From contig NZ_CP116871.1 in NCBI RefSeq assembly GCF_031885415.1, positions 3,162,001 to 3,226,000 of the forward strand: a stretch of 64,000 nucleotides of DNA. The letters run 5' to 3'. The notes beneath the pieces were generated by a model. The model had not been told where the DNA came from. It saw only the letters and a list, made by a program, of their open reading frames with translations, and made no database searches. The stretch is from Microbacterium forte. GTDB taxonomy: Bacteria; Actinomycetota; Actinomycetes; Actinomycetales; Microbacteriaceae. A program made the position numbers and the translations under genes. Shown in pieces: positions 32,047-41,920 of the stretch; within the stretch, counting starts at the first letter, position 1; the number at the start of each line of letters is the position of its first letter.

Positions 32047-33708
32047 ATGAACAGCACCGCGGAGCTTCTGAATCGGGTCATCACCGACCTCGATGCGGTG
32101 CTGTCCGATGACGCGTTGGCGGGGTTGTCCGATGCGGAGCGGATCGGCGTTCTGGTGGCGGCGGGGGCGGCGTTTCGTCGGGTGGAGGCGGTGGTCGTCG
32201 AGACCGTCGCGACGGGCGAGATGGGTGACTTCCCGCACTCCGCAGGCTGCCGGGGCGAGAACGAGCTGCTGCAGCGGACGGTGCTCGTCGATGCGCGGGG
32301 TGCGACCCGGGTGGGGAAGGTCATCGACCGGGTGCGGCGGGATGTGAGCCTGGTGTCGGGGGAGCGGCTCCCTGCCCGGTGGCCGGAGTTGCGGACGGCG
32401 CTGTTGGACGGGGTGATCGGGATCGACGGGTTCCTCGCCGCGACGGGCCCGATCGAGAAGGTCTGGGACCGGCTCAGCGTCGACCAGCGGTTGGCCGCGG
32501 ATGTCGCGTTGGCAGGGTGCGCACGCGGGCACGGCCTGAAGGTCGCCCCGGATACGGATCCAGATGTGCCTGGTCCGTCGCCGACGACGGAGGATCTGAA
32601 AGCTCTCGCCGAGGATCTCGCATCGATGTTCGACCCCGACGGGGAAGAACCCAAAGACCAGGACGCGAGGCGTCGGCGGGGCGTCACGATCGGGCGATTG
32701 AAGGATGGTGTGCACGCGATCCGCGGGTATCTGACCCCGGATGTCGCTGCCCAGTTCCAACTCATCATGGACGCGATCCTCAACCCCAAAGGCGACGGCC
32801 CGCCCCGGCCAGGGGTGTTCTTCACCCCCGGCGGCGGCGCGGGCTCAGATGCGGATGCGGATGCGGATTCAGGTGCTGGTGCTGGTGCTGGTGCTGGTGC
32901 TGGTGCTGGTGCTGGTGCTGGTGCTGGTGCTGGTGCTGGTGCGGATGCGGATGCGGACCCGAACTCTGACACGGATGCGGGGGAGGATCCGTTCAACTCG
33001 GATGAGCGGAGCGTGCTCGATGACCGCACCGCGGCGCAGAAACGTCACGACGCTCTCGCCGCAGCGCTGGCGATCGCGGCGCGGCACAAGGACATGCCCA
33101 CCCTCGGCGGTGCATCACCGGTCGTCGTCGTGACGGTCGACGCGACAGACCTCGCCCACCATGCCGCTCAGGCCACCGGCGCTGCCTTCGGGGGTGCCGC
33201 CTTCGGAGGTGCCGCAGCCGGGGGCTCTGGGGCCGGAGCGGGTGGCAATGGTGGGTGGGCGACGATCCCCGGTTCCGGTGCTCATGTTCCCGTCTCTGTC
33301 GCCGCGCAGATCGCGTGCTCGGGGGCGATTCAGCGCGTGCTCATGGACGAGGGGCGGATCATCGGGATCACGACCCCGGATCGGATCTTCACCGTGCATC
33401 AGCGTCGGGCGATCATCGCCCGCGACAAGGAGTGCCTGATCCCTGGATGCCACGTTCCCGCGTCGTGGTGTGAGATCCACCATGTCACCGAGCACGCCCG
33501 GGGCGGCCCGACGCATACGGATAATGGTGTGCCGTTGTGTTGGTGGCATCACCGGTCCCTCGGCACCTCGGGGTGGGAGATCCGGATGAACGACGGCCTC
33601 CCACAGGTCCGCGGCCCGGCATGGTGGGATCTCGCACAGCACTGGCGCACCCCGAAACTCAGCCTCCCCGCCGACCTGCCCCAGAAGCACCTCGCCCGAA
33701 CGGGGTGA
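32047..33708 (+). CDS. HNH endonuclease of the DUF222/13E12 family with Ala-Gly microsatellite
   Basis: 553 residues. The N-terminal DUF222 domain covers about 1-250 ('LSDAERIGVLVAAGAAFRRVEAVVVETVATGEMGDF'). The C-terminal HNH nuclease motif has zinc Cys and catalytic His: 'ECLIPGCHVPASWCEIHHVTEHARGGPTHTDNGVPLCWWHHRSLG' in two adjacent blocks. Between them lies a low-complexity linker of Asp-Ala and then 11 to 12 Gly-Ala pairs (32872-32940), plus a second Gly/Ala-rich stretch near 380-400. GGGGAG precedes the ATG. This family is multicopy in actinobacterial genomes; its biological role is not established. Confidence 0.93.
   Translation: MNSTAELLNRVITDLDAVLSDDALAGLSDAERIGVLVAAGAAFRRVEAVVVETVATGEMGDFPHSAGCRGENELLQRTVLVDARGATRVGKVIDRVRRDVSLVSGERLPARWPELRTALLDGVIGIDGFLAATGPIEKVWDRLSVDQRLAADVALAGCARGHGLKVAPDTDPDVPGPSPTTEDLKALAEDLASMFDPDGEEPKDQDARRRRGVTIGRLKDGVHAIRGYLTPDVAAQFQLIMDAILNPKGDGPPRPGVFFTPGGGAGSDADADADSGAGAGAGAGAGAGAGAGAGAGAGADADADPNSDTDAGEDPFNSDERSVLDDRTAAQKRHDALAAALAIAARHKDMPTLGGASPVVVVTVDATDLAHHAAQATGAAFGGAAFGGAAAGGSGAGAGGNGGWATIPGSGAHVPVSVAAQIACSGAIQRVLMDEGRIIGITTPDRIFTVHQRRAIIARDKECLIPGCHVPASWCEIHHVTEHARGGPTHTDNGVPLCWWHHRSLGTSGWEIRMNDGLPQVRGPAWWDLAQHWRTPKLSLPADLPQKHLARTG
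32872..32940 (+). repeat. In-frame microsatellite (GGTGCT)n inside the HNH gene
   Basis: GGT followed by 11 perfect GCTGGT units, 69 bp, encoding alternating Gly-Ala. It is flanked by GATGCG repeats encoding Asp-Ala. Because the unit is 6 bp, copy-number changes keep the reading frame and only alter linker length. Confidence 0.97.
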
Positions 33709-33863: not shown

Positions 33864-34517
<654 letters not shown>

Positions 34518-34557: not shown

Positions 34558-34581
34558 TAGACCTTTGGCTATCGAGGTCTA
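34558..34581. promoter_or_regulatory. Inverted repeat, probable response-regulator site
   Basis: TAGACCT, a 10-base spacer, then AGGTCTA: a perfect 7-bp inverted repeat. It is 41 bases upstream of the response regulator gene and 86 bases upstream of the 15-codon ORF, in a locally AT-richer gap, so it could control both directions. Confidence 0.6.
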
Positions 34582-34666
34582 GACGTGCGACAGATGTGGT
34601 GCGAGAAGATCACCGAGAAGATGAGTACATCGCTAGTCAAAAGTGCAATAAAGGAGGTGAATCTCT

Positions 34667-34714
34667 ATGTCTTTCTGGAACCAGGTTGGACTCTTTTTCG
34701 GCTTCTACCGTTAA
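34667..34714 (+). CDS. 15-aa hydrophobic peptide ORF ahead of histidine kinase gene
   Basis: The ORF encodes MSFWNQVGLFFGFYR and stops with TAA. The ribosome site AAAGGAGGTGA, a full anti-16S match, ends 6 bases before the ATG, one of the best sites in the window. The kinase gene begins 29 bases after the stop with its own AAAGGAG. The peptide is aromatic and hydrophobic (W, five F/Y) with one C-terminal Arg and no signal sequence. It could be a secreted leaderless signal sensed by the adjacent kinase, a small membrane effector, or a translated leader controlling kinase expression. Existence as a real gene rests on the ribosome site and context only. Confidence 0.6.
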   Translation: MSFWNQVGLFFGFYR

Positions 34715-34743
34715 TCTATATGGCGGAAAGGAGATACTGAAGT

Positions 34744-35886
34744 ATGGCTTCAAGTCTTCCGGCGGGTGAACGCGCAGACGTCACTCGACTCGGAAAGGGC
34801 GAGAAGCTCAGCACGATCGAACGGATCGCCGTATTGGCGGTCGTCGGAACGATCGTCACCTTCGACATCGTCGGACTGTTCCTTCCTCCGGGATTGGATC
34901 CTCTGACGGCGGCACTCGGGATCGCATCCACCGCGGTCTTGGCCCTGTATCTCTGGTCGCCACTGATCGCGACATACGCCCTCGGCGTGGTGTTCGCACT
35001 CTCCTTCATCCCCGGCATCGAAGCCCAGGTGCTCACGACCGCCGCTTTCGCGGCAGGCCTGATCGTGCGTCTGGGATGGACCTCCTTGGTCCTGTCCTAT
35101 GCCGGAGTTTTCCTCCTCGCATCCGCACTGGTCGTCACTGGCGACTCGAGGGATGCCTTCAATATCGCGATCTTCCTGGTCGGCGCCGCAGTATCCGGAG
35201 CCGTCGGCTTCGCACTTCGCATCGCGTTCGCCCGAGGGCGGACGCTCGAGGTGCAGCTGGCTGAGAAGGCCGAGCAGGAACGGCAGGCAGTACTCGCTGA
35301 GCGACGTTGGATCGCCGGCGAGTTGCACGACAGCATCGCGCACCACCTCACGGTGGTGGCGCTGCACGTGCAGATGCTCGACGACGATCGCACCAGCAGC
35401 GAATCGCAGGAGGCGATCCGCATCGCCGCACGCAAGGCGATGACCGATCTCCGCTTCGTGATCGACCTCGCAGACGACGGACCCCGGTCCGAGGGCATGC
35501 CCTCGGGTGATCTGGCGGCGTCCGTCGACGAAGCCCAGCAGGAGTTCGAATCCGCGGGTCATGCCGTGCTCGTCGACGGCGACCCCTCTGACGAGCGCAT
35601 CCCACGCGCGGCCGAGATCATCCTCGCGCGCATCTTGCGCGAGTCGGCCACCAACGTCCTCAAGTACGCAGGCGAGGGCGAAGTCCTGATCCGATTCGAC
35701 ATCGATGACGACTCCGCAAAGCTGACGGTGAGTAGCCCTCTCTCTGTCACGCCGCGTCGCGAGCTCTCGTCGAGCCGCACCGGCATCGGGCGGATGGCCG
35801 AACGTGTTCTCGGTGCCAGTGGTGAGTTCAGTGCCGGAGAAGCGGACGGACGCTGGGTCGTGACAGCTCTCCTGCCGATCGTCTGA
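34744..35886 (+). CDS. HisKA_3 sensor histidine kinase
   Basis: 380 residues. About six membrane helices lie in the N-terminal half (about 28-160) with very short loops, so sensing is probably within the membrane or through short external loops. They are followed by a HisKA_3 dimerisation domain with phospho-acceptor His195 in 'GELHDSIAHHLTVVALHVQML' and a HATPase_c domain with 'ILRESATNVLKYAGEGEVLIRFD' and 'RTGIGRMAERVLGASG'. This NarL-type kinase should phosphorylate the divergent response regulator. AAAGGAG precedes the ATG. The membrane-embedded sensor design is compatible with sensing a hydrophobic peptide or membrane stress. Confidence 0.93.
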   Translation: MASSLPAGERADVTRLGKGEKLSTIERIAVLAVVGTIVTFDIVGLFLPPGLDPLTAALGIASTAVLALYLWSPLIATYALGVVFALSFIPGIEAQVLTTAAFAAGLIVRLGWTSLVLSYAGVFLLASALVVTGDSRDAFNIAIFLVGAAVSGAVGFALRIAFARGRTLEVQLAEKAEQERQAVLAERRWIAGELHDSIAHHLTVVALHVQMLDDDRTSSESQEAIRIAARKAMTDLRFVIDLADDGPRSEGMPSGDLAASVDEAQQEFESAGHAVLVDGDPSDERIPRAAEIILARILRESATNVLKYAGEGEVLIRFDIDDDSAKLTVSSPLSVTPRRELSSSRTGIGRMAERVLGASGEFSAGEADGRWVVTALLPIV

Positions 35887-36188
35887 CCAAACCGGTATTC
35901 CGGCATCTTGGCGACGGAACGCGGTCAGAATCCTCGTCCAGCATTCCGATACTCTGGGGGAAAACCCGCGGAATTCCGGGGATGCACGCTCAAGGACTAG
36001 ACGAAAGTCCAGGGTAGGTCTCGACTATAGACCGTGTTCCATGGTGTAGCCGGGAGCTTACATTGGGTATACCCCAGAAATAGCGCATCCCCAGCGCTGT
36101 GATCGCGAGCGCGATCTCTGGAATCTGATCCCCAGCGCGCTCGCGATCGGCTTCTTCCCTCGAGGAATCGAAACCGACCTGCTGGCTC
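35887..36188. other. 302-bp gap between convergent kinase and GntR genes
   Basis: No gene is supported. It contains several inverted repeats: GGACT-N7-AGTCC near 35994-36010, GGTCT-N7-AGACC at 36017-36033 overlapping a TATAGA hexamer, the palindrome GGGTATACCC (36065-36074), and a large terminator-like hairpin at 36101-36148. Confidence 0.6.
36101..36148. terminator. Terminator-like 13-bp inverted repeat
   Basis: GATCGCGAGCGCG (36101-36113) and CGCGCTCGCGATC (36136-36148) are perfect complements around a 22-base loop. The loop and flank share TCCCCAGCGC. CTTCTTCC follows on the + strand. It lies between the convergent kinase and GntR genes, so it probably ends transcripts from both sides. 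Confidence 0.6.
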
Positions 36189-36932
36189 CTAGCCGCCGAC
36201 TGCACGCATGTAGTGCCCGTCTGTCGATATTCCCGACGCTGCGACGGTGAACCGCACCACCTCGCTGAGATAGCGGTCCTCCGATGCTTCGAAGATGCGT
36301 CCGCTCGCATCGCGGGAGATGCGGCTGAGCCGGAGGATCGGCGTTCCCTGCGGCACCCGCAGGAGCGCGGCATCCTGGTCATCGGCCGCCACCGCGTCGA
36401 TCTGGTGCTCGAGGCCGACGATCGGGTGTCCGACTGACCCCAGGTATTCGGTGATCGAGATCTCGTCGGTGTCGACGTCGAACAGCCGGCGCCCGACGGC
36501 CTCGGTGTAGAAGAGGCGCTCGAGCATCGTCGGTCGCCCGTCGAGCAGTCGGAGTCGCACGACGCCGACGATCGTGTCATCGGGGGAGACCCCGAGAAGC
36601 TCGGCGCGGTCACCTGCCCGGCGAAGACTCAGCTCCTGCGTCTGGGCGCCGGGGGTCACGCCGAGATCGCGAGCCCAGCGGGTGAACGGCACCGACACGT
36701 CGACGGCCTGACTCGCCTTGCGCGAGACGACCCGAGCGGGGCGGCCTCTTCCGGTCTCGATCAGGCCCTCGCTGCGCAGCGCAGCCAGGGCGTTCCGGAT
36801 GGGACCACGAGACGTGCGCCAGCGTTCGGCGAGCTCCGACTCGGTGGGCACGTCATCCCCGGGGCGCAGAGAGCCGGCCGCGATCTGGGCGCGCAGGTCG
36901 TCTGCGATCTGGGTGTATACAGCTTCGGCCAC
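36189..36932 (-). CDS. GntR family regulator, HutC/PhnF type (UTRA domain)
   Basis: 247 residues. The N-terminal winged helix 'YTQIADDLRAQIAAGSLRPGDDVPTESELAERWRTSRGPIRNALAALRSEGLIETGRGRPARVV' is followed by a UTRA ligand domain ('DDTIVGVVRLRLLDGRPTMLERLFYTEAVGRRLF', 'HQIDAVAADDQDAALLRVPQGTPILRLSRISRDASGRIFEASEDRYLSEVVRFTV'). This is the PhnF/HutC branch. It is divergent from the phosphonate transport operon and most likely its repressor. The start codon is GTG. The effector is probably a phosphonate or an intermediate of its breakdown. Confidence 0.9.
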   Translation of the reverse strand: MAEAVYTQIADDLRAQIAAGSLRPGDDVPTESELAERWRTSRGPIRNALAALRSEGLIETGRGRPARVVSRKASQAVDVSVPFTRWARDLGVTPGAQTQELSLRRAGDRAELLGVSPDDTIVGVVRLRLLDGRPTMLERLFYTEAVGRRLFDVDTDEISITEYLGSVGHPIVGLEHQIDAVAADDQDAALLRVPQGTPILRLSRISRDASGRIFEASEDRYLSEVVRFTVAASGISTDGHYMRAVGG

Positions 36933-37014
36933 ATAGGCATACTACTTGGTGACATCACAGGGAGGTCGAGCGTTCTGTCTGTGTTCATCCCAGGAAAGCC
37001 CGGGTGAACGAACC

Positions 37015-37042
37015 TTGAACTCTTGCAAGTTAGGTATATATC
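37015..37042 (+). promoter_or_regulatory. Putative promoter of the phosphonate operon
   Basis: TTGAAC (37015-37020) and TATATC (37037-37042) are 16 bases apart, about 60 bp before the PhnD-like start. AACTCTTGCAAGTT (37018-37031), an imperfect inverted repeat, overlaps the spacer and is a candidate GntR operator. Confidence 0.6.
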
Positions 37043-37102
37043 TCGGTCCGCGCCCTGTCAGAGTTGCTCGTGGATCACCCCCTCCCACTCTGAAAGGTCC
37101 TC

Positions 37103-38032
37103 ATGAAGCTCCGCGCTTTCCCCGTACTCGCCGGCGCCGCGATCCTCGCGCTCGGCCTCGCCGCCTGTTCCGGCACCGCCGAGGCCACCGGCGCGTCCGA
37201 TGCCGAGGCATCATCGACCGCGAGCGGCTTCGCAGTCGACGAGAACACGCTCGTCTTCGGCGTCGTGCCCGACTCGGTCGACACCGAGACGAACTACCAG
37301 CCGCTGATGGACTACATCGCCGAGATCACCGGCAAGTCGGTCGAGTACCACGAGTCGACCGACTACGCCGCGCTCATCGAGGCCGCTGTCGCCGGCAAGG
37401 TCGACGTCGCCTCCTTCTCGGGATTCACCTACGTCACCGCCACCAACAACGGTGCGAAGCTCACCCCGATCTCGTCGATCGTCACGGAGGAGGGCCAGGA
37501 GCCCGGCTACTTCTCACAGGCGATCGTCCCCGCTGACAGCGACATCTCGAGCATCGACGACTTCGCGGGCAAGAAGGTCTGCTTCGTCGACCCGTCGTCC
37601 ACGTCCGGATACCTCTTCCCCTCGTACAACCTCATCGAGGCGGGCATCGACCCGAAGACCGACATCACTCCGGTCTTCGCGGGCAAGCACGACGTGAGCG
37701 TGCAGAAGGTCGGCGAGGGGGTCGAGTGCGAGGTCGGCTTCGCCGAGGACTCCGAGGTCGAGAAGTCGGATGCCGTCAAGGTCATCGACGAGACCATGGT
37801 GCCCGGTGCCCCGCTCGTCTACTCGTCGACGCTTCCCGACGACGTCGCCCAGAAGCTCATCGACGGCCTCTCGGAGATCACGATCGACGACATCATCGCC
37901 GCCGGCATCGACAGCGCCGACACCGACTCGTTCCGCAGCGTCTTCTTCGCCACGAAGCCGGTCGACGACGCGTACTACGACCTCATCCGCGACATCTGCA
38001 AGGAGACCGAAGCGGAGCAGTGCCAGGGCTGA
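37103..38032 (+). CDS. phnD: Phosphonate-binding lipoprotein (PhnD type)
   Basis: 309 residues. The signal peptide ends in lipobox LAAC (Cys22). The mature part follows the PhnD/SsuA fold: 'LVFGVVPDSVDTETNYQPLMDYIAEITGKSVEYHESTDYAALIEAAVAGKVDVASFSGFTYVTA', 'KKVCFVDPSSTSGYLFPSYNLIEAGIDP' and 'AGKHDVSVQKVGEGVECEVGFAED'. It captures a phosphonate outside the membrane for the PhnC/PhnE importer. AAAGG precedes the ATG. A 137-bp gap with two strong hairpins separates it from phnC, which would let the binding protein be made in excess. Confidence 0.9.
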   Translation: MKLRAFPVLAGAAILALGLAACSGTAEATGASDAEASSTASGFAVDENTLVFGVVPDSVDTETNYQPLMDYIAEITGKSVEYHESTDYAALIEAAVAGKVDVASFSGFTYVTATNNGAKLTPISSIVTEEGQEPGYFSQAIVPADSDISSIDDFAGKKVCFVDPSSTSGYLFPSYNLIEAGIDPKTDITPVFAGKHDVSVQKVGEGVECEVGFAEDSEVEKSDAVKVIDETMVPGAPLVYSSTLPDDVAQKLIDGLSEITIDDIIAAGIDSADTDSFRSVFFATKPVDDAYYDLIRDICKETEAEQCQG

Positions 38033-38051
38033 CACCCTGACATCCGCTTGG

Positions 38052-38127
38052 CTCCCGCTCGTCGAGCGGGAGGTCACGGCGAGCGAGACGAGACGCGCTG
38101 AGGTCGATGCGCTTCGTCTCGCTCGCC
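38052..38127 (+). terminator. Double hairpin between phnD and phnC (attenuator or mRNA stabiliser)
   Basis: Stem 1: CTCCCGCTCG/CGAGCGGGAG (38052-38072), perfect. Stem 2: GGCGAGCGAGACG (38078-38090) with CGTCTCGCTCGCC (38115-38127), perfect 13 bp, with an inner GCGC/GCGC pair in the loop. No T-run follows, so partial termination or 3'-end protection of phnD mRNA is more likely than full termination. Confidence 0.65.
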
Positions 38128-38169
38128 ACCTCTACCGACGAGCTTCAGAGATTCACGAGGAGAACTGAC

Positions 38170-39015
38170 ATGAACACGGCATCCGATGCCCTCATCCGCC
38201 TGAACGGCGTGACGAAGACCTTCGGCACGACCACGGCGCTCAAGAACGCGTCGCTGCAGGTGTCTCGCGGCGAGATCGTCGTGCTGCTGGGCCTCTCGGG
38301 CTCGGGCAAGTCCACGCTCCTGCGCCACGTCGACGGGCTCGAGGTCCCGACCTCGGGCGACATCGAGGTGCTCGGTTCCCCGGTGCCGACTCTGAAGGGC
38401 AAGGCGCTCCGCCGCCTGCGCAGTCGGGTGGGATTCATCTTCCAGCAGTTCGAGCTCGTGCCCTCGCTCACCGTGCTCGAGAACGTGCTCACCGGATCGC
38501 TGTCGGAGGTCCGCGGACCGCGCCTCGGGCTCTGGGGCTATTCGAAGGCGGCGAAGCTGCGCGCCCTCGAACACCTCGACCGCGTCGGACTCCTCGATCG
38601 CGCCTATCAGCGCAGCGACACCCTCTCGGGCGGCCAGCAGCAGCGCGTCGCCATCGCCCGCGCCCTGATGCAGAAGCCCGACATCCTTCTCGCCGACGAG
38701 CCCGTCGCCTCGCTCGACCCCGAGTCGAGCGATCAGGTCATGGCGCTGATCCGCGAGATCGCCGCCGACGAGGGCCTCACCGTCGTCTGCAGCCTGCACC
38801 AGGTCGACCTCGCGATCTCGTGGGCCGACCGCATCGTCGGCCTGCGCCACGGTGAGATCGTGCTCGACACACCGACCGGCGACCTCACCAAGGCCGAGGT
38901 CATGGAGATCTACGGCCGCGTCGCCACGACCACGGCTGAGATCCGCGCCGTCCAGAACGAGCTCACCGAGATCGCGGTCGACATCGCCGACATCGACACG
39001 GCCCGGGTCTCATGA
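38170..39015 (+). CDS. phnC: Phosphonate ABC transporter ATP-binding protein
   Basis: 281 residues. Walker A 'GLSGSGKST', Q-loop '[23 protein letters not shown]', signature '[15 protein letters not shown]', Walker B '[16 protein letters not shown]' and switch His in '[11 protein letters not shown]' are all present. The Q-loop sequence is characteristic of PhnC. A C-terminal extension of about 30 residues ('[20 protein letters not shown]') is unusual. GAGGAGAACTGAC precedes the ATG. The stop overlaps the permease start as ATGA. It drives import with the PhnD-like lipoprotein and the fused PhnE. Confidence 0.94.
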
Positions 39016-40754
39016 CCGTGCTCTCGGACGCCCCCTCGTCCTCCGCGGCCCCAGGGCACTCCACCGTCTCCGACCGCGCACCCCGACGCCCGCTTTCGGC
39101 CGAGCGCATCGCCGCCGGACTCACCCTGGTGGCTCTCCTGGTGCTCGGCATCCTCGCGGTCGAAGAGGTCGGCATCTCGATCCCGGCGATGGTGCAGAGC
39201 TGGGGCAATGCCGAGAACTTCGTGGCCCGCGTCGGCGGACTCTCGTTCCCCGAGCCGGCCGACCTCGCCTGGCTGATCGCCCTCACTGTGGGGCTCGTGC
39301 TCGTCGGCACGCTGCTCGCCGCCGTGCTCTCGGTGCCGATCGCCTACCTCGCAGCCTCGAACACGACCCCGGGCAACGGCTGGCGGGCCGCGGCCCGATT
39401 CGTGGGAGTGCTCACCCGCGCGCTGCCGGACGTCGTGCTCGCCATGGCGTTCGTGCTCATGTTCTCGCTCGGCACCCTCCCCGGCATCCTCGCCATCGGC
39501 ATCCACTCGATCGGCATGATCTCGAAGATGTTCGCCGACGCGATCGAGCAGATCGACGAGGGTCCCCGGCTTGCGATCCGCGCCGCCGGCGGATCGAAGA
39601 TGCAGGAGTTCGCCTCGGGGATCCTTCCCCAGGTATTGCCGAGTTGGGTCGCGACGGTGCTGCATCGCAACGACATCAACCTGCGCGGCAGCGTCGTGCT
39701 CGGCTACGTGGGTGTGGCGGGCCTCGGGCTCGAGATGTCGTACGCGTTCAAGTCGCTGAACTACGGCAAAGGCCTGGGCATCGCGCTGGTCATCTTCATC
39801 CTGTGCGTCGCGATGGAGATCGTCTCGAGCCTGGTGCGCGGGGCGATGCTCGGACAGCAGAGGCAGACCCGGTCGTGGATCGACCGCATCATCCACCCTC
39901 GACTGCGCGGCTCGTCGAGCGCGAGTTCCACGGGGACCGCACGACCTGCATGGGCGGCAAGCCCTCAGACCGCGGTGCGGCGACCGTGGACGGCAGAGCG
40001 CGTGCGCAACACGAGCGGCATCATCGTCGCCGTGCTCGTCGTGATCGGCAGCGTCGTCGTCAGCCAGATCAACTGGCTCGACTTCTTCACCTTCTGGGCC
40101 AAGCTCCCCGAGGTCGCCGCGAAGTTCTGGCCGCCGTCCTTCGGCAGCTACGAGGCGTCGGCGATGATCGCCGCCATGCGCGACACGATCGCGATCGCAC
40201 TCGCAGCGACCGTGCTCACCCTGCTGCCTTCTCTGATCCTGGGCTCGCTCGCGGCCAGCAACGTCGCACCCGGCCCTGGCGTGCGCGGCGTCGCACGATT
40301 CCTGCTCGTCGGCATCCGCGGCATCCCCGAGCTGATCCTCGCGATCGTGCTCGTCGTGATCACCGGACTCGGTGCGCAGGCGGGAGTCATCGCGCTCGCC
40401 ATCGGCGGCATCGGACTGCTCGGCAAACTGATCGCCGACTCCCTCGAGGAGGTCGACCGAGGCCCCGAGCGGGCGCTTCGCGCGGTCGGCGCCACTCGTC
40501 TGCAGACCTACACCTCGGCGACAGTGCCGCAGGGGATGCAGGCGCTCATCGGACACAGCTTCTACATGCTCGACACGAACATCCGTGCGGCGACGATCCT
40601 CGGCATCGTCGGCGGCGGCGGAGTCGGCTACTACCTGCTCAACGCCAGCCAGGGCTCTCGCTACGAGACGGTCACCGCGATCGTGCTGATGATCCTCGTC
40701 ACGGTGCTCGTCGTCGAAGGACTCGCGATGTGGATGCGGAAGGTGTTCCGATGA
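39012..40754 (+). CDS. phnE: Double-length phosphonate permease (two PhnE domains fused)
   Basis: 580 residues, twice the size of a single PhnE. The first half (about 25-290) and second half (about 320-580) each carry a permease domain with its own EAA-type loop: 'QIDEGPRLAIRAAGGSKMQEFASGILPQVLPSWVATVLHRNDINLRGSVVLGYVG' and 'EVDRGPERALRAVGATRLQTYTSATVPQGMQALIGHSFYMLDTNIRAATILGIVG', split by a Ser/Arg/Ala-rich linker near 290-330. It replaces the usual PhnE homodimer or PhnE1/PhnE2 pair. It overlaps phnC upstream and the FAD oxidoreductase gene downstream by 4 bp each. Confidence 0.93.
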   Translation: MTVLSDAPSSSAAPGHSTVSDRAPRRPLSAERIAAGLTLVALLVLGILAVEEVGISIPAMVQSWGNAENFVARVGGLSFPEPADLAWLIALTVGLVLVGTLLAAVLSVPIAYLAASNTTPGNGWRAAARFVGVLTRALPDVVLAMAFVLMFSLGTLPGILAIGIHSIGMISKMFADAIEQIDEGPRLAIRAAGGSKMQEFASGILPQVLPSWVATVLHRNDINLRGSVVLGYVGVAGLGLEMSYAFKSLNYGKGLGIALVIFILCVAMEIVSSLVRGAMLGQQRQTRSWIDRIIHPRLRGSSSASSTGTARPAWAASPQTAVRRPWTAERVRNTSGIIVAVLVVIGSVVVSQINWLDFFTFWAKLPEVAAKFWPPSFGSYEASAMIAAMRDTIAIALAATVLTLLPSLILGSLAASNVAPGPGVRGVARFLLVGIRGIPELILAIVLVVITGLGAQAGVIALAIGGIGLLGKLIADSLEEVDRGPERALRAVGATRLQTYTSATVPQGMQALIGHSFYMLDTNIRAATILGIVGGGGVGYYLLNASQGSRYETVTAIVLMILVTVLVVEGLAMWMRKVFR

Positions 40755-41920
40755 ACGGCGCTCAGCACAGCGGCACTGAGCACAAAGGCACTCAGCACAG
40801 CGCGGATCTCGTCGTCGTGGGTTCGGGGATCATCGGCCTCGGCGCGGCCTACGCCGCTGTTCGGCGGGGCCTCACGGTGATCGTCGTCGACAGGGCGGAT
40901 GCCCCTGTCGGGGCGACGATCCGCAACTTCGGCCATCTCTGCATCGGCGCGCAGACCGGCGAGGCTCGCCGCTATGCCGACCTGTCTCGCGACCTGTGGC
41001 TGCGACTCGCTCATGACGCGGACTTCTGGCTGCGCGAATCCGGCACGCTGGTCGCCGCTCGTCACGCAGACGAGATCGCGGTGCTCGAGCAGGCGGCGGC
41101 CGACGGCGGCATCCGGATGCTGGAGACGGACGAGCTGCTGCGTCTCGCCCCGCTCCGTGCCGAGGGGCTCGTCGGCGGGGCGCACATCGAGACCGACCTG
41201 CAGACCGATCCGCGCACCGCCGCGGCCGCGATCGTGCGACACCTCGCCGTGCAGGGAGTCGACTTCCGCTTCCGCACAGCGGTGACCTCGGTCGCCGGGC
41301 GACGCGTCGAGACGACGAGAGGCGCCATCACCGCCGGCGCGGTGGTCGTCGCGGTCAATCACGACGTCGACCAGCTGCTGCCCGAGGTGGCCGCACGCGC
41401 CGGTGTCGAGCGGTGCGCGCTCGACATGATGCGAGCGGCGGTGACGCTGCGGCATCCGCTCGCTGCCCCGCTGCTGACCGGCTGGTCGCTCGTGCGGTAC
41501 GGACGCTTCGCCGACGGTGCGGCGGCCGGTGCCCTCCGTGAGCGACTGCACTCCGAGCGCCCCGACCTCGCGGCACTCGACCTCAACCAGATGTACACCC
41601 AGCTGCCGGACGGCACGCTCATCATCGGCGACTCGCACACCACGTCGAGTGCGCCCGAGCCGTTCCAGCCGGAGGCGGCGTTCGCCGCGTTCCTCGCCGA
41701 GGCGGAGGCGCTGTTCGACATGCCCGCACCGCGGGTGCTCGAGCGCTGGCAGGGCGTCTACGCCAAGGCGCAGCACGAATTCCTCATCGACAGGGTCGAG
41801 GAGGGGGTGCTGGTGCTCGCCGCGACCACCGGCATCGGAATGACCACGGGTCTGGGGCTCGCCGAAGAGAATCTCACCGCCGCCTTCGGGTGGGCACCCG
41901 CAATGGAAGGAACCTCATGA
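40751..41920 (+). CDS. FAD-dependent oxidoreductase of phosphonate clusters (TIGR03364-like)
   Basis: 389 residues, DAO-type flavoprotein. The FAD-binding 'DLVVVGSGIIGLGAAYAAVRRGLTVIVVDRADAP' starts at about residue 19, followed by 'VGATIRNFGHLCIGAQTGEARRYADLSRDLWLRLA', a stretch typical of the phosphonate-associated group. The C-terminal 'LAATTGIGMTTGLGLAEEN' closes the FAD site. Family knowledge suggests oxidative deamination of 2-aminoethylphosphonate or an N-methyl or hydroxy variant to phosphonoacetaldehyde. The next gene, a PhnX-like hydrolase, fits that product. An N-terminal His/Gln/Thr-rich tail of about 17 residues precedes the domain. ATGA overlaps join it to both neighbours. Confidence 0.88.
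   Translation: MNGAQHSGTEHKGTQHSADLVVVGSGIIGLGAAYAAVRRGLTVIVVDRADAPVGATIRNFGHLCIGAQTGEARRYADLSRDLWLRLAHDADFWLRESGTLVAARHADEIAVLEQAAADGGIRMLETDELLRLAPLRAEGLVGGAHIETDLQTDPRTAAAAIVRHLAVQGVDFRFRTAVTSVAGRRVETTRGAITAGAVVVAVNHDVDQLLPEVAARAGVERCALDMMRAAVTLRHPLAAPLLTGWSLVRYGRFADGAAAGALRERLHSERPDLAALDLNQMYTQLPDGTLIIGDSHTTSSAPEPFQPEAAFAAFLAEAEALFDMPAPRVLERWQGVYAKAQHEFLIDRVEEGVLVLAATTGIGMTTGLGLAEENLTAAFGWAPAMEGTS

Follow-up and report, generated by a model that had tools for sequence, protein, structure and literature searches.

A preliminary description of the 64 000-nucleotide stretch of Microbacterium forte DNA analysed here (the window) drew attention to a 15-residue hydrophobic peptide ORF in front of a histidine kinase gene, and proposed that the peptide might be the ligand of this kinase, a translated leader regulating kinase synthesis being the main alternative. 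The locus thus raises two questions, namely whether this very short ORF is a genuine gene, and what its product would do beside a membrane kinase.

Organisation of the locus

The ORF lies on the forward strand (34667-34714), where an ATG at 34667 is followed by the codons MSFWNQVGLFFGFYR and a TAA closing at 34714. It is preceded, at a distance of 6 bases, by the Shine-Dalgarno sequence AAAGGAGGTGA (34650-34660, + strand), which in the orthologous loci keeps the form (a)GGAGGTGAa or one close to it. A gap of 29 bases separates its end from the ATG of the kinase gene (34744-35886, + strand), for which a Shine-Dalgarno sequence of its own, AAAGGAGA, was read at 34727-34734 (+ strand), while a response regulator gene of the NarL/LuxR type (33864-34517, - strand; 217 aa) is divergent from the kinase. 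The ORF, its spacing, the 29-base gap, the kinase's own site and the divergent regulator had all been reported in the preliminary description and were confirmed in the sequence. Beside the regulator gene is a 553-aa ORF (32047-33708), in which a long stretch of repetitive Gly/Ala/Asp sequence is combined with a C-terminal part of HNH-like character, and at 36189-41920 a GntR/UTRA regulator faces a phosphonate-type ABC transporter operon.

Pfam searches assigned the 380-aa kinase to a single family, HisKA_3, and the regulator to Response_reg and GerE, the pairing that marks a NarL-type two-component system. An AlphaFold2 model of the kinase, of modest confidence (mean pLDDT 71.5, pTM 0.37), placed helices at residues 24-46, 53-68, 73-86, 93-110 and 113-133 and a further one from 135 on, with short loops between them; the preliminary description likewise gave six helices, which in the model are N-terminal. 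In a fold search the kinase core was closest to DesK among solved structures; the matches covered the DesK core, and no solved membrane-sensor fold was matched. The likeness to DesK/DesR lies in this best structural match of the kinase core, and DesK is not known to have an accompanying peptide gene.

Conservation of the peptide ORF

The strength of the ribosome site had been put forward as an argument against chance. This argument failed, as the pattern GGAGGT-N5-9-ATG has three occurrences in the window and shuffled sequence would already give 2.04, so that the site alone is not beyond chance and was rejected as proof of the ORF. The nearest named relatives of the kinase are from Microbacterium, and comparison across this genus was more informative. 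A kinase match at E <= 1e-25 was obtained in 145 of 366 Microbacterium genomes, and by row count 92 of the 366 carried a kinase of at least 52% identity, which is in broken pieces in G034 and partial in G275. The 106 ortholog loci at 50% identity or more were reduced to 93 distinct loci by dropping identical ones; the set includes one Leucobacter locus (L159) and omits L010, which is the same genome place as L121. Peptides were sought as ORFs that were 12-17 codons long, lay 30-130 nt upstream of the aligned start of the kinase and had F, V or I followed by W at residues 3-4.

By this definition the short ORF was open in 92 of the 93 loci, which together encode 50 distinct peptides and use all three stop codons. 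The sole failure was L121, from genome G034, where the kinase gene is also broken. In this genome the small RNA described below continues to be detected (67.9 bits) behind the two broken frames, which gives the impression of a peptide-kinase pair decaying jointly. The synonymous test covered the 84 loci whose ORF has 15 codons and excluded multiply changed codons; the single-change codons comprised 67 synonymous and 27 non-synonymous differences (42 disjoint pairs), where 24.7% synonymous changes would be expected under neutrality (p = 3e-21); over all pairs, pN/pS was 0.48. A lack of codon conservation and of synonymous bias had been named in the preliminary description as grounds for abandoning the peptide. 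With the ORF kept in all but one locus and synonymous changes above the neutral expectation, these grounds fell away, and on such sequence comparisons we regard the 15-residue peptide gene as confirmed to be real and conserved.

The window peptide has neither a signal peptide nor a cysteine. The listed peptides of its kind (FW-type) likewise have no leader and are 13-15 residues long, and some keep a single cysteine (e.g. MTFWQQLCILLGILR). Each of the 50 distinct peptides has a net charge of +1 to +2. An amphipathic helix was considered as a special feature of the peptides and rejected, their amphipathicity having a mean z of only 0.47 against shuffled peptides, with z > 1 in 14%.

Covariation of the peptide with the membrane part of the kinase

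Distances between peptides were compared with distances between kinases over 91 loci, after exclusion of L121, which lacks the peptide, and L120, whose kinase is partial. Peptide distance correlated with the distance of kinase residues 26-165, the membrane part, with r 0.75. When the catalytic part and the regulator were held constant, the membrane part retained a partial r of 0.52, a value reached by none of 2000 permutations; the corresponding values were 0.27 for the regulator (0 of 2000) and 0.02 for the catalytic part (reached by 685 of 2000). In a fuller model, to which silent sites and both regulator domains were added, the membrane part kept a partial r of 0.454, as compared with 0.205 for the receiver domain, 0.192 for the silent sites of the membrane part, 0.026 for the catalytic part and at most 0.06 for the rest. 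The 30-residue stretch of the kinase correlating most with peptide distance was 81-110. These correlations share ancestry, which limits what they can show, and linkage may contribute to them, since the membrane part adjoins the peptide gene. Peptide divergence nevertheless appears to follow the membrane part of the kinase, the pattern that would be expected of a ligand and its membrane receptor.

Paired boxes and a predicted small RNA

Two further elements of the locus, paired regulator-like boxes and a small RNA, had no place in the preliminary description. The first box, TAGACCTTTGGCTA (34558-34571, + strand), lies 109 nt before the peptide ORF. When one mismatch was allowed, 90 of the 92 ortholog loci had it at a distance of 108-111 nt from the peptide start codon, as compared with 0.4 loci in the shuffled control. 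A second box, TAGACGAAAGTCCA (35998-36011, + strand; TGGACTTTCGTCTA on the opposite strand), lies 3' of the kinase and recurred in 85 of the 92 loci at the same stringency (control, 0.5 loci), usually some 72 nt before the first CCCCAG. A stricter form of the pattern had three perfect sites in the genome of origin, two of them at the peptide-kinase locus; sites within one mismatch numbered 8, against 43 for the reversed pattern. The third perfect site (L033) was rejected as a further box, being inside an aminotransferase-like coding frame. Judged by the positions of the two boxes, the divergent regulator probably binds both.

Behind the second box a small RNA was predicted at 36067-36163 (+ strand; 87.8 bits with covariance model R1). 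Positions 36068-36160 folded at -40.4 kcal/mol (z -4.82), below all 200 shuffles. The predicted structure comprises a hairpin with a UCCCC loop, AUAGCGC-AUCCCCA-GCGCUGU (36080-36100, + strand), followed by a long terminator-like hairpin (36101-36148, + strand) with stem changes on both sides; in an alignment of 36 such elements, 6 of 19 predicted pairs had pair-keeping changes on both sides. The RNA sits between the kinase and the GntR/UTRA regulator, and the terminator-like hairpin may be in use on either strand.

The covariance model matched just behind the kinase, on the kinase strand, in 90 of the 93 loci (E <= 7e-11), the 36 aligned sequences from which it was built matching by construction; no match was obtained at L119, L120 or L159. 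L119 (G186) has three consecutive CCCC-loop hairpins whose stems are quite unlike one another, and so represents a natural variant of the RNA which escapes the model. Genus-wide, 90 of 366 genomes matched at E <= 6e-10, and every one of these belongs to the 92 kinase-bearing genomes. The best match after these was in G229, for which no kinase at that identity was listed; at E <= 0.01 the number of matching genomes rose to 141 of the 366, many of the matches being weak. The weaker matches away from the kinase locus at G229:C1:135025-135114 (E 3e-8) and G314:C1:80167-80256 (E 6.7e-6) are possibly second copies or relatives of the RNA.

CCCC-loop hairpins, one to three per locus, were present in 91 of 93 loci where the control gave an expectation of 15.8, and their stems varied around the same UCCCCAG loop (AGCG-UCCCCA-GCGCU, GUGGG-UCCCCAG-CCCAC, CGUGGA-ACCCCAG-UCCACG). 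The 6C RNA of actinobacteria also has C-rich loops, and in this it is alike; it differs in that cmscan did not match the Microbacterium RNA to it. Neither 6C nor any other Rfam family had a match in the window between 33800 and 36400 at E <= 1, nor did six related loci give any match at the gathering score. UCCCC motifs of staphylococcal sRNAs are described in parts of PMC9217828 and PMC8334554 as pairing with Shine-Dalgarno sites, and by analogy we infer that the UCCCCA loops of the Microbacterium RNA may pair with G-rich sites of this kind.

A wider family of peptides beside related kinases

More distant Microbacterium kinases (28-45% identity) were found beside peptides ending with two cysteines, for example GIWxxLCRLLGLCS, GIWDWLCKTFGVCN and LWTTICEMLGLCK, and beside some without cysteine (WDWLGRYLGIWK). 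A peptide was present at 24 of 26 distant loci, with none at L138 and L139; the filter gave none at L135. At least two kinases of the wider family are present in each of several genomes (G202, G234, G104, G105, G209 and G174), and a single cell may therefore contain two peptide-kinase pairs side by side.

Samples of 299 genomes of the family and 297 of the order yielded 20 related kinases of non-FW type (L198 being of the same genus), and 16 of them had a divergent regulator. Between this regulator and the kinase, a two-cysteine peptide gene was detected by the filter in 13 of the 20, all within those 16; inspection by eye raised the count to 15 by adding the near-identical L194 and L195, where the core is present without a clear ribosome site. 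No two-cysteine peptide was found at the other five loci (L207, L211, L212, L215 and L216). Among 43 generic control kinases, one passed the peptide filter and none had a divergent regulator, so that these controls are not matched for layout. The controls were drawn from phylum-wide kinase matches (30 of 296 genomes), which were rejected as relatives, those outside the genus being generic kinases.

Five of the related precursors (L208, L209, L210, L213 and L214) start with what was judged by eye to be a Sec-like signal peptide. Searches with five precursors gave no match above a curated cut-off in Pfam or NCBIfam. For the L213 precursor sixteen relatives were found, several named Glutamicibacter, which keep the signal-like start and a C-terminal WxCxxYGxxC around a variable middle. 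Searches with L209 and L214 returned two relatives and one, respectively, and core conservation is thus little tested for these two; the L214 precursor, whose core is atypical, matches a Devriesea agamarum hypothetical protein at 100% identity. The window peptide shares the layout of the family, a short ORF between a divergent NarL-type regulator and a HisKA_3 kinase, as well as its C-terminal aromatic-x-hydrophobic core. On the evidence of layout and core, it is a member of a wider, unnamed family that includes these exported-looking precursors.

The RNA is more restricted in its distribution, being seen with the FW-type. Five related Microbacterium loci, and two others, likewise have a box and a C-rich stretch 3' of the kinase, while of 12 Cys-type kinase loci tested, 3 had a box behind the kinase and 1 a CCCC hairpin, and the RNA output is therefore not general to the peptide family.

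Mechanism and alternative explanations

What the computations show is that the peptide gene and a structured RNA are conserved, that two boxes keep fixed positions, that the peptide coevolves with the kinase in its membrane part, and that there are relatives with exported-looking precursors. We consider it probable that the peptide is an autoinducing ligand of the kinase, and that the NarL-type regulator acts on both boxes and drives the C-rich RNA. The ORF would give a secreted or membrane-inserted signal peptide, which would be sensed as a ligand by the membrane part of the adjoining kinase, and the kinase would then phosphorylate the divergent regulator. Binding of the regulator to the box before the peptide gene would provide positive feedback, and binding to the box behind the kinase would drive the RNA of about 95 nt, whose UCCCCA loops may base-pair with G-rich stretches, Shine-Dalgarno sites among them.

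The ligand reading of the preliminary description gains support, while remaining conditional, from coevolution with the membrane part and from the exported-looking precursors beside related kinases. Its most serious competitor is that the leaderless peptide inserts into the membrane from inside and regulates the kinase of the same cell with no intercellular signal, as MgrB and SafA are small membrane regulators acting on PhoQ. A leaderless peptide of 13-15 residues, hydrophobic and net positive, would suit such a role, and coevolution with the membrane part fits a site on either membrane side. Against this, the precursors encoded at the equivalent place beside related kinases, with their Sec-like signal peptide and C-terminal core, point to a site of action outside the cell, and feedback driven through a box is typical of autoinducers. 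We therefore hold same-cell regulation to be unlikely, though still to be reckoned with.

A translated leader, which would tune kinase synthesis by coupling or stalling and whose peptide would have no role in trans, is consistent with the conserved spacer and with the place of the FW-type ORF, some 77-91 nt before the aligned kinase start. However, conservation extends beyond nucleotides to the amino acid level, and the peptide tracks the membrane part of the kinase. Moreover, in 26 distant loci (the above 24 with a peptide, together with L126 and L128) ATAAT occurred 6-10 nt before the kinase start, with no evident Shine-Dalgarno sequence, in 11, and the spacer held a run of at least 10 paired bases in 12, a count made without a shuffle control. 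The two features suggest that the kinase is separately transcribed at those loci, and such promoter-like sequence behind the peptide gene favours the ligand over the leader, which we regard as improbable.

Still less credible is a small antimicrobial or surfactant peptide (PSM-like) that would be controlled by the pair without being its ligand. It would be short, hydrophobic and positively charged, with a box preceding its gene, as found here, but the location between regulator and kinase has persisted in different genera and families, the peptide and the membrane part of the receptor coevolve tightly, and there was no immunity gene among the ORFs read around the locus. A chance ORF, for which the chance-level frequency of the ribosome site pattern would speak, is already refuted by the 92 open loci and the synonymous excess and has practically no probability left.

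Returning to the autoinducing peptide, its nearest functional parallel is agr of staphylococci (AgrD/AgrC/AgrA/RNAIII). Like agr, the Microbacterium locus would combine a short peptide, a membrane kinase and a regulator with feedback on the peptide gene and, as output, a regulator-driven RNA with C-rich loops. PMC8334554 describes RNAIII as the principal effector through which quorum sensing acts inside the cell, and many staphylococcal sRNAs as carrying C-rich sequence complementary to Shine-Dalgarno sites. In contrast to agr, with its AgrC-class kinase and LytTR-type regulator, the Microbacterium pair consists of a HisKA_3 kinase and a NarL-type Response_reg and GerE regulator, the FW-type peptide is mostly without cysteine and has no leader, and the RNA is only about 95 nt long. 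Reading of the ORFs of at least 80 aa at 30-40 kb of the window revealed none resembling an AgrB-type membrane protease. On our best reading, the peptide-sensor-RNA circuit would work like agr/RNAIII without being homologous to agr.

SIP/RopB of Streptococcus pyogenes, as described in part of PMC6565748, relies on SIP, a leaderless peptide of eight residues that is secreted and then reimported, and it is alike in using a bare, very short hydrophobic peptide as signal. SIP differs in that it binds a cytosolic regulator, whereas the Microbacterium peptide gene adjoins a membrane kinase; no cytosolic Rgg-type receptor is encoded beside it, the neighbours being the kinase and the NarL-type regulator. 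The RsaE/RoxS-type sRNAs, with UCCCC motifs, a length of about 93 nt and two-component control according to parts of PMC8334554 and PMC9217828, are comparable to the Microbacterium RNA, but differ in structure, phylum and cognate regulator, and the window stretch had no Rfam match at E <= 1.

In part of a 2016 review (PMC4748050) it was stated that there was no evidence of quorum sensing in Microbacterium, not even bioinformatic, and in the open-licence literature, a scope outside which most subscription papers fall, we found no description of this peptide-kinase-RNA system. Whether the locus represents an unnamed, order-wide actinobacterial pheromone system, ranging from Sec-exported two-cysteine precursors to bare 15-residue peptides, each sensed by a DesK-like membrane kinase of the adjoining gene, with a dedicated RNA of repeated UCCCCA hairpins as the main output in Microbacterium, an RNAIII-like solution reached independently, we judge to be evenly balanced. 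Should the autoinducer reading hold, a quarter of the sampled Microbacterium species would have a full candidate circuit. The range of peptides, from exported ones with two cysteines to leaderless ones without any, would then illustrate how a pheromone can shed the signal for its export and yet retain its receptor. The RNA, for its part, would give a second and independent example of peptide sensing by a two-component pair that operates via C-rich RNA loops.
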